In this document: positions 29,224-37,663 of the stretch, one piece after another
Position numbering within the stretch: position 1 is the first letter of the stretch
Layout of the letters: every line of letters begins with the position of its first letter
Source: Acidobacteriota bacterium
GTDB lineage: Bacteria; Acidobacteriota; Terriglobia; Terriglobales; Acidobacteriaceae
NCBI GenBank assembly: GCA_016196065.1
Contig: JACPYL010000012.1
Location: forward strand, 1-64,000
DNA length: 64,000 bases
Direction: 5' to 3'
The notes under the pieces: model-generated
Database searches by the model: none
Told to the model about the DNA's origin: nothing
The model's input: the letters and a program-made list of their open reading frames with translations, nothing else
Made by a program: the position numbers and the translations under genes

Positions 29224-29581
29224 GAAGCGGACTCCTGGTTTGAGGGGCTTTGGAAGACCCGGGAACGAAGACAAACTACTGTACTCGCTAGTAGACGCCT
29301 CTGCCAACAAGAGGTGAGCACAAATTGTTAGGTGGGAGTCTGGTGTTGAGAAATTCTCGGCAGGCATGTTCCGGAGGGACGACCGAAAATAGCCCGCCAG
29401 TTCACTGGCGGGTAGTATGCGTATTGCGGATTTCGAGTGCCGGAGGCACGACTGAAAATTGTGCCATCATGGCCATCGCTGGGCAGTCGTCCCGCTGGGA
29501 CTCTGATTCTGGTCGCAATCTCACCCGGCGTTGAAACGCCGGGCTATTGTCGACTGTCCTTCCGGGCAACTTTTGCGGCTT
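29224..29581. repeat. Intergenic gap with REP-like palindromes
   Basis: No gene seen. It contains CCCGCCAGTTCACTGGCGGG (29393-29412) and CCCGGCGTTGAAACGCCGGG (29524-29543), two perfect or near-perfect hairpins, plus GTGCCGGAGGCACGA. Similar palindromes occur at 15753-15852 and 34660-34735. Confidence 0.7.
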
Positions 29582-32444: not shown

Positions 32445-32936
32445 CTACTCTGGGGGCAGGTCCCGCAATGCCTGCAATAGTTCCTCGACGTTCGGCAACT
32501 GGTCAATGGGATAGACCCTGACGAATGCGATCTTCCCCGATTTATCTACCACGAACGCCGCCCGCTCGCTGATTCCCGGAACGGGGGTTCCTTCGCGAAG
32601 GATGCCGAATTTTTTTGTAACCTCGCCGTGCGGATAAAAGTCGGAGCAAAGCGGGATCTTCACGGAGCCGACTTCCCGCTCCCGCCACTCTTGATGACTC
32701 GGAATGGAATCGACGCTGATGTCCAGAACCTGGGCATTGAGAGCCGCGAATTCTTTGCTGCGCGCATCGAATTCCGGCACCTGCACTGCTCAAGTCGGTG
32801 TCCAGTCCAGCGGATGAAACGTGACCACCAGGTTCTGCTTGCCCAGATAATCACGGGAACGGACCGTGATCAGCTCTTCGCCCGCGACGGCAGGCAATTC
32901 AAAATCGGGCGCGATATCTCCGGGATTCAGCGGCAT
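32445..32936 (-). CDS. AhpE-like peroxiredoxin, probable selenoprotein (in-frame TGA)
   Basis: Read through one TGA, this is a complete 163-residue peroxiredoxin. It opens with MPLNPGDIAPDFELPAVAGE, continues to HPLDWTPT, then TGA (32790-32792, codon 49), then AVQVPEFDARS, and ends with LCSDFYPHGEVTKKFGI and the conserved SERAAFVVDKSGKI. The PxxxTxxC motif of the family places the peroxidatic cysteine exactly at the TGA, one base from a Cys codon. The frame is intact on both sides. A predicted stem (32744-32777) begins 12 nt after the TGA. Selenocysteine peroxiredoxins are known in bacteria. Cys97 could act as resolving residue. A nonsense pseudogene cannot be excluded. No sel genes are in the window. 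Confidence 0.8.
32744..32777 (-). promoter_or_regulatory. Candidate SECIS hairpin
   Basis: On the minus-strand RNA, CCGGAAUUC (32777-32769) pairs with GAAUUC-G-CGG (32753-32744), giving 6 continuous base pairs plus 3 beyond a bulged G. The 15-nt apical loop starts with G, 21 nt after the UGA. Bacterial SECIS elements lie in this distance range. The loop lacks an obvious GU, so fit to the model needs calculation. Confidence 0.5.
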
Positions 32937-34496: not shown

Positions 34497-34659
34497 GGAG
34501 AAATTGCAGCGGGCTATACGGAAGTCTATGGTCGTAGTAAGTAGCCAACTCGCAACCAGAAGCCAATTCGTACTCAGTGACGAAGTTGCATTCAGTGGCG
34601 AACTCGCACTCAGGGCCGAGTAGAAAGCCGAGCAAGTTCAGATCAAGCCGCGCAGCGGC

Positions 34660-34735
34660 GACACAGGAAAGCCCGGCATGGAAGTGCCGGGTAAGTGAAT
34701 GGGCAAGACGTGAGTCCCGCCAGGGACGGCACCCT
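34660..34735. repeat. REP-like palindromes
   Basis: Includes GCCCGGCATGGAAGTGCCGGG and GTCCCGCCAGGGAC, both hairpin-forming, in the gap between the TlpA-like gene and the small secreted protein. Confidence 0.6.
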
Positions 34736-36741: not shown

Positions 36742-36848
36742 GATGCACCCTAAAGAGTGCATCATATATATGGAATTGCCCGCTTAGCCGAACTGTCACC
36801 GTATGGTGTGCGTGCCCGAAAGGGATAGGCTAGCGGGTTTATTTTTTT
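36742..36848 (+). ncRNA. Possible small RNA with terminator
   Basis: On the plus strand, a 7-bp hairpin GATGCAC-8 nt-GTGCATC (36742-36763) is followed by a large imperfect stem, CCCGCTTAGCC (36779-36789) with GGCTAGCGGG (36828-36837), and then TTTATTTTTTT. This is a good intrinsic terminator, yet no plus-strand gene is upstream. It may end a short RNA or be a palindromic element at the 3' end of the opposite DUF3800 gene. No good promoter was found. Confidence 0.3.
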
Positions 36849-36851
36849 CCA

Positions 36852-37481
36852 CTATCTCGGCCAAATTTTCAGCATCATTTCCCGGTGTGAAATAACCCTC
36901 CGATATACCAAGTGGTCACCCTTGTTTTTCTTCAAGTATCGAGAGACCGATCCGCATACCATATCGGCTAGTTGCAGAAGATTGTTCGCCTTGGATTCGT
37001 TCGTTTTTATTTTGTGTACTAGTGGTTCCTCTCCTTTAGCATTAACGCGCTTCCCTAGATATTTCTTGAGCTCTCGCTGGAATTCCCGGTTCCCGCATCT
37101 GTCGAAAATCACAATTGCATTTTTCAGATAAGGCTTTAGATTCTCGAACAGCAAGTTAACTGCATATTTGTAAAAAGAATTCTTGTATTGGAATCCTTCG
37201 CCGTACAGTTTTGCCTTGTTGAACACGAATGACATGTAGAAATATTGAAATTTCCCTGTTTCCGTGAGAAAGCGCTCACGGACCTCGCGACAGCACGAGT
37301 TAAAGTGGAATTCGAAGTATGGATTATTTGAAAGCTCCCTCCTCAGTAGATCTATCCGCAAATCACAGGCAGTGGCTTCGTCCCTATCACTAAAAGTCAC
37401 TGCCGTTACAACAAAATAAGGCGACGAATCCTGCTTTCCTTTCATGCCAGGGTCGCCGGACTCGTCGATAAAAACCAGCAT
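36852..37481 (-). CDS. DUF3800 protein
   Basis: 209 residues. The family signature is at the start (MLVFIDESGDPG) and further acidic positions follow (IVIFDRCG, LLQLADMVCGSVSRYL), consistent with an RNase-H-like nuclease fold. DUF3800 genes are often found in mobile or defence-associated regions, but their activity is unproven. The region is clearly more AT-rich than its neighbours, which suggests transfer. The ATG at 37481 begins at the conserved signature; an open extension to 37544 is less likely. Confidence 0.85.
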   Translation of the reverse strand: MLVFIDESGDPGMKGKQDSSPYFVVTAVTFSDRDEATACDLRIDLLRRELSNNPYFEFHFNSCCREVRERFLTETGKFQYFYMSFVFNKAKLYGEGFQYKNSFYKYAVNLLFENLKPYLKNAIVIFDRCGNREFQRELKKYLGKRVNAKGEEPLVHKIKTNESKANNLLQLADMVCGSVSRYLKKNKGDHLVYRRVISHREMMLKIWPR

Positions 37482-37663
37482 TTGTGGGAGCCAAATCCGA
37501 TCTGGGGAAGGCGAGGATTGTACCAGAGGGCTGGATCTTACCAAGTGGGTATCTGTGGCAATCTAACAGCCATAACCTGTAGAGGTATCTTGACCGGCAC
37601 AACGGCGGAAGCACGTTAAGCATCCCGTAGGAACTTTCTAGACGCCAGACACTGCTCCGGCTG

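Follow-up and report, generated by a model that had tools for sequence, protein, structure and literature searches.

A probable selenocysteine peroxiredoxin gene of an acidobacterium and the two conserved hairpins beyond its UGA

Can a peroxiredoxin gene with TGA in place of its catalytic cysteine codon be read as a selenoprotein gene, and which RNA structure would direct the insertion of selenocysteine (Sec)? The question is raised by a minus-strand gene of a soil bacterium of the Acidobacteriota, located in a 64,000-nucleotide (nt) stretch of DNA (positions 1 to 64,000 of contig JACPYL010000012.1, assembly GCA_016196065.1), referred to here as the window. This gene almost certainly encodes a Sec peroxiredoxin, probably with a bipartite, displaced Sec insertion sequence (SECIS), made up of a spacer hairpin (H1) and a SelB hairpin (H2). 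The genome carries the sel genes, the TGA is conserved, both hairpins are under selection only in Sec genes, H2 shows covariation, and its loop is shifted by 41 nt.

Decoding of codon 49 and the encoded enzyme

Read from 32936 to 32445, the frame contains exactly one in-frame TGA and peroxiredoxin sequence that is intact on both flanks. The TGA occupies the Cys site of the PxxxTxxC motif, with P42 and T46 preceding it at position 49. An earlier note, made from the sequence alone, had rightly placed the TGA at the peroxidatic position between intact, family-like flanks; its coordinates were also right, and what it left unstated was the strand. On the plus strand the same coordinates give an unrelated frame with no peroxiredoxin.

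The genome (5.5 Mb in 29 contigs) has matches above the respective cut-offs for selA (549 bits), selB (380 bits) and selD (364 bits), as well as a tRNA-Sec at 67 bits against a gathering score of 47. A second match to the tRNA-Sec model, at 47.3 bits, is barely above the cut-off. Since the model also matches in 14/14 control genomes, in five of them above the cut-off, the anticodon call matters, and for the 67-bit match this is tca. The earlier note had advised a search for selA, selB, selC (tRNA-Sec) and selD and had held that an incomplete set would speak against Sec; all four are present, so this objection falls away.

Orthologues that are 77-85% identical, each with one TGA at the same site, occur in at least seven other genomes of the genus among the 61 genomes searched, and more distant orthologues in the family and class likewise retain TGA at the Cys site, while other homologues have Cys. 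At least 33 of the 61 genomes have a match carrying an in-frame TGA (our own count, among the matches listed). selB is above its cut-off in 51 of the 61. Of the ten genomes in which it is not, only G007 and G018 belong to these at least 33; both assemblies are incomplete (75% and 80%), and their selB matches are partial. Nonsynonymous divergence (dN) is 0.07-0.42 against a synonymous divergence (dS) of 0.7-2.7 on both sides of the TGA in nine comparisons, where defined (one dS value 3' of the TGA is undefined); purifying selection acts both before and after the codon. As such, the gene displays what is expected of a bacterial selenoprotein, namely a TGA that aligns with Cys in homologues and persists in relatives, together with selA, selB, selD and tRNA-Sec. 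Judging from sequence, codon 49 is almost certainly decoded as Sec, as the earlier note had proposed. The counter-sign that it had named, Cys in close relatives beside a decayed gene in this strain, is not seen: close relatives keep TGA and show no decay.

The protein is a peroxiredoxin by its Pfam AhpC-TSA match (Table 1), and the peroxiredoxin fold and PxxxTxx(C/U) motif place it in the AhpC/TSA group. An AlphaFold (AF2) model, built with Cys replacing Sec from a single alignment of 32 proteins, has a mean predicted local distance difference test (pLDDT) score of 95, and 50/50 of the Foldseek rows shown are peroxiredoxin-type enzymes. A plant 2-Cys peroxiredoxin (5zte; 83.3 bits) is the top match in the PDB in sequence as well as fold. 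Second by sequence is Mycobacterium tuberculosis AhpE (77 bits), which ranks 15th by fold in Foldseek. Like AhpE, the protein is a single-domain peroxiredoxin with the shared motif SDF[WY]PHG (34% identity, TMq 0.85 in Foldseek); unlike AhpE, it has Sec rather than Cys at the peroxidatic site. It is reasonable to call the enzyme AhpE-like, as had been done, as long as the label is not taken as exclusive: by sequence and fold the protein is most like 2-Cys peroxiredoxin cores and AhpE. The NCBIfam PrxU equivalog model (NF040737) gives 69.5 bits against a curated cut-off of 270, and the protein is therefore not a PrxU equivalog.

The proposal that Cys97 could be the resolving residue is doubtful. 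In alignment A1 this position is Cys in all 12 same-family rows and not Cys in four rows of other families; in alignment A3 it is Cys in 8/32 rows and Leu in every Chloroflexi row. A general resolving role was rejected because the residue is not conserved across the Sec family. The enzyme may work by a 1-Sec mechanism that draws on an outside reductant; alternatively, some clades alone may form a Sec-Cys97 pair. In either event, peroxides would be reduced through Sec, and in the mechanism proposed here with the help of an outside reductant.

A Sec peroxiredoxin is also said to occur in Eubacterium acidaminophilum. As in known bacterial Sec peroxiredoxins (COG1225 TxxU; E. acidaminophilum), Sec replaces the peroxidatic Cys of PxxxTxxC; the present genes have a hairpin with a GGU loop about 60 nt after the UGA, which may set them apart. 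Passages of earlier papers indicate that the Sec peroxiredoxin family has long been known (PMC1794560, PMC1088965), and families are listed in parts of PMC1794560 and PMC9312934.

In paralogues about 40% identical, the peroxidatic residue is replaced by Ser (AGC), as in PFNWQEAS. One is found in this genome (G000:C25:103346-103801, L154), and others in two genomes of the same genus and a named acidobacterial metagenome-assembled genome (L030, L031, L109). From their sequences, these peroxiredoxins look catalytically dead.

Table 1. Window coordinates of the gene and its elements; +n is the position in nt counted from the UGA
Feature	Coordinates	Strand	Remarks
Sec peroxiredoxin gene (predicted)	32445..32936	-	ATG to TAG, 163 codons; PF00578 (AhpC-TSA), E = 3.8e-30
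In-frame TGA, codon 49, peroxidatic position (probably read as Sec)	32790..32792	-	kept in orthologues
H1, proposed spacer hairpin, about +9 to +50	32740..32781	-	contains the hairpin of the earlier note, 32744-32777
H2, proposed SelB-binding SECIS hairpin, +53 to +71	32719..32737	-	6/7 core pairs in this gene
AGGU of H2, +59 to +62	32728..32731	-	A at +59, GG at +60/+61
Codon 97 (Cys), sole Cys codon of the protein	32646..32648	-	not conserved through the Sec family

Two hairpins and their distance from the UGA

The hairpins were analysed in a family sample of 64 distinct TGA genes and 42 Cys genes, drawn from 30 loci of a longer list from the 61-genome search and from 80 of at least 593 relatives. 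The Sec genes come from Acidobacteria, Bacillota, Chloroflexi, a deltaproteobacterium and a Zixibacterium, and 81-base stretches of 63 of them were aligned gap-free by MAFFT. One locus (L050) was dropped as it has the same stretch as L028; L121, which has TGA and lacks H2, is included in counts out of 64 and excluded from those out of 63, and L063, which holds an N, is included in counts out of 42 Cys genes and excluded from those out of 41. The Ser forms L030, L031 and L109 belong to neither set. H2 was counted as intact with at least six of its seven core pairs.

By this measure H2 is intact in 60/63 Sec genes versus 2/41 Cys genes, and the string CCCAGGT stands at the same offset in 49/64 and 0/42, respectively. 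GGU is found at +60 to +62 in 60/63 Sec genes, and all 63 have a loop that opens at +60 or +61. Pair +55/+69 is G-C in 39 rows, A-U in 22, G-U in one and no standard pair in one; pair +54/+70 is U-A in 50, G-C in five, C-G in three and unpaired in five. Overall, 93.3% of 504 cells are paired versus 18-49% after sliding by one to three columns, and two-sided change is seen in 31 cells versus a shuffled mean of 10.9, with 0/500 shuffles as high. In an own-codon synonymous null the mean z of H2 is -2.78 in Sec genes (63/63 below -1) and -0.16 in Cys genes (7/41), and when synonymous codons are dealt among the sequences its folding energies give z -8.0 and 0.2. Furthermore, H2 is the one hairpin displayed by RNAalifold on the whole set. 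SelB contacts a G and a U of the SECIS loop, and the paired stem and GGU-type loop of a SelB-binding minihelix are both present in H2, to which SelB is predicted to bind.

The hairpin reported earlier at 32744-32777 does exist (-14.0 kcal/mol, z = -2.64, matched by 2/200 shuffles), and the fold stands out less when longer flanking sequence is included (z -0.89 to -1.93). The hairpin covers +13 to +46 and forms the core of H1, which in 63/63 Sec genes folds as an enclosing hairpin with 8 base pairs (bp) or more, the median extent being +9 to +50 and 14 bp. Dealing synonymous codons among the sequences 50 times yields such a hairpin in 40.4 ± 3.1 of 63 (maximum 46). Among Cys genes it occurs in 25/41, with a dealt null of 21.8 ± 2.4 (maximum 27). 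The own-codon null gives H1 a mean z of -2.64 in Sec genes (62/63 below -1) and -0.12 in Cys genes (10/41), and the dealt null on energies for +4 to +51 gives -16.6 and -0.5. In Sec genes, then, both hairpins exceed their synonymous recodings in stability; in Cys genes neither does.

In E. coli the spacing between UGA and SECIS matters, and Chen reportedly studied it in 1993. The E. coli fdhF SECIS (Rfam SECIS_2) resembles H2 in its short stem with an AGGU loop, a SelB-type motif, and differs in that the A of the loop is at +18 (GGU from +19) in fdhF versus +59 here, with a second hairpin in between. For comparison, six fdhA-type loci with a catalytic TGA were examined from ten genomes, four further TGA matches being left out. 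GGU begins at +19 in five of the six, and the sixth, L191, has GGC at that position by our reading of the printed bases. L191 and four of the other five come from genomes with the two-hairpin Sec peroxiredoxin; the fifth, L185, comes from a genome sampled with a Cys peroxiredoxin only. In the deiodinase-like selenoprotein gene of the present genome the A of AGGU is at +17 (own count on the printed bases). The loop of the peroxiredoxins is therefore shifted by 41 nt relative to fdhF and fdhA, and the median H1 (+9 to +50) is 42 nt long. When H1 is removed in silico, the A of AGGU falls at +17 in 23/63 Sec genes, the commonest value. From these comparisons we infer that H2 is the SelB site and H1 a looped-out spacer.

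Published models place the SECIS loop 16-37 nt from the UGA, according to passages of PMC13188914 and PMC10778597, and the upper stem-loop of E. coli is given as 11 nt from the UGA in part of PMC8659212. H2 lies outside the canonical distance. Passages of PMC13188914, PMC12013277 and PMC9312934 describe some bacterial SECIS elements, or a share of selenoprotein genes, as falling outside the model, and for Epsilonproteobacteria a section of PMC4607533 presents a covariance model for a shared hairpin that follows the TGA by a few nt. Rfam SECIS families, of which SECIS_2 detects fdhF at 87 bits, gave no match in the two peroxiredoxin loci scanned (L131 and L160) and were set aside as a detector of the present element. 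A displaced two-hairpin element was not found described in the open-access text that was searched, a body of literature to which most subscription journals, supplements and figures do not belong. This hints that the element may be new to the literature.

In the proposed mechanism, SelA, SelB, SelD and tRNA-Sec would insert the peroxidatic Sec at UGA codon 49. With the ribosome positioned on the UGA, H1 would still be folded just outside the mRNA entry and would bring H2, with its GGU-type loop, to the position of the canonical SECIS minihelix. SelB would bind H2, and H1 would act as a looped-out spacer that restores the normal spacing.

Distribution of the element

A class-wide search of 399 genomes returned 27 matches at E <= 1e-40 in 25 genomes, and the gene is accordingly patchy. 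Twenty-three loci of this search, outside the model rows, comprise 20 TGA, two Cys and one Ser gene. All 20 further TGA genes, one of which (L226) had already been seen earlier in the analysis, keep H2, with 7/7 pairs in sixteen and 6/7 in four, and H1 is present in 19/20, the exception being L212.

The genome also has a second TGA peroxiredoxin, with the motif FAFTGGU and the same two-hairpin layout (G000:C10:1342997-1343371; L131/L153/L175). This gene and 13 relatives (L165-L171, L176-L181) have 7/7 H2 pairs at the same place, and H1 is found in all eight that were folded (this genome's gene and L165-L171). In a fifteenth gene of the type, L182, the hairpin is 3 nt nearer the UGA.

An RNA model of the element, R1, has two matches in this genome, both in peroxiredoxins. 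It gave 31 matches at 30 loci in 41 genomes, with TGA peroxiredoxins at 27/30; L173 and L183 have Cys at the site, and for L174 no frame could be aligned. In a further run on 17 genomes there were 17 matches, 16 of them TGA peroxiredoxins, plus L243 without an assignment. L173, L174, L243 and L244 were also inspected for a TGA with a fully paired, GGT-containing H2 downstream, and none has one. R1 was set aside as a finder of the displaced element in other kinds of gene, as nearly all its matches are TGA peroxiredoxins.

Taken over these sets, there is a good case, held with less assurance than the reading of the single gene, for a distinct cross-phylum class of bacterial SECIS in which a spacer hairpin comes first and the SelB hairpin lies about 41 nt farther from the UGA than in the textbook arrangement. 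This class would be found in one peroxiredoxin family and the related FAFTGGU family, would decay where the site is Cys, and would dictate the downstream peptide A/T-Q-V.

Other features were observed in the genome and the window. The deiodinase-like selenoprotein gene (G000:C25:313092-313526, L152) contains SYTUPPF, matches T4_deiodinase at 106 bits and has a SECIS-like hairpin at the canonical distance. In the window, an Rfam DUF3800-IX RNA at 36778-36842 (+, 67.7 bits) is separated by about 10 bases from the end of a DUF3800 gene on the minus strand (36852-37544, 64.9 bits). Matches to the Acido-Lenti-1 RNA lie at 29367-29412 (-) and 34646-34691 (-), both above the gathering score, with a weaker one below it at 29524-29571 (+).

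Competing explanations and significance

The same observations could be explained in other ways. One rather unlikely alternative takes H1 for an ordinary SECIS to which SelB binds at the canonical distance, and H2 for an accessory in pausing, co-translational folding or mRNA stability. Such a role of H1 would agree with its occurrence in every Sec gene (63/63). Under the canonical 16-37 nt model with a G in the first two loop positions, the H1 apical loop fits in 36/63 genes and does not in 27. However, no common motif is seen in the H1 loops and GGU lies within none of them (0/63), the conserved loop and the two-sided covariation belong to H2, and GGU begins at +18 or +19 in fdhF, five of six fdhA loci and the deiodinase-like gene. 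The earlier note had pointed to the hairpin at 32744-32777, with its loop 21 nt after the TGA; the near-invariant and covarying hairpin with the SelB-type loop lies at 32737-32719, and the former is probably not the SelB site by itself. A far smaller chance is left to an ordinary selenoprotein gene in which H2 is conserved on account of the peptide A/T-Q-V-L-G and not as RNA. Gln and Val are indeed near-constant there among Sec enzymes, but the own-codon null separates the H2 of Sec genes from that of Cys genes, the G-C/A-U exchange couples the first base of Ala/Thr with the third base of Gly, and a Cys orthologue, L021 (63% identical), retains the peptide AQVVDIS yet makes 4/7 H2 pairs. That the gene is decayed, that the TGA is a sequencing error or that it is a plain sense codon is scarcely credible. 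The TGA is one base off a Cys codon and the genome is an assembly of many contigs, but against this stand the same-site TGA in many genomes, the low dN against dS on both flanks and the complete Sec machinery. TGA also terminates 10/28 long non-overlapping open reading frames in the window (stop-to-stop, not confirmed genes), and so seems to serve as an ordinary stop codon here.

The reading of H2 as the SelB hairpin and H1 as its spacer meets difficulties of its own. After removal of H1 the position of the A scatters from +12 to +28. The number of H2 pairs with two-sided change (3 vs 2.7 shuffled) and of further pair types (8 vs 8.9) shows no excess, and a test of TGA against H2 on independent pairs has no power (2-3 pairs), because the tree shows just 3 Sec/Cys changes. 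Column covariation in H1 is weak, with a mean excess pairing on the axis of 0.07 vs 0.025 in Cys genes, and H1 is missing from the RNAalifold consensus of the whole set. There are also individual exceptions. Sec genes L070, L074 and L108 have fewer than 6/7 H2 pairs, and Cys genes L064 and L119 reach at least 6/7. TGA peroxiredoxins with a poor H2 are L121 (Syntrophales), L172 and L184 (G051) and L244 (G064), which may use another SECIS type. Similarly, Cys genes L208 and L210 (G358 and G386, one genus) keep seven and five of the seven H2 pairs, in L208 with wobble pairs and an altered Gln codon. They are read as recent losses of Sec and could help to date when the element decayed.

A conserved two-hairpin element would account for one set of the bacterial SECIS that do not fit current models, and would supply annotation tools with a searchable pattern. 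The bipartite element would break the published 16-37 nt rule and make it testable how ribosome-bound SelB measures its distance to the UGA. It also means that an RNA signal within a gene can fix the amino acids encoded there. If the proposed reading is true, SelB would gauge distance in space rather than in nucleotides.
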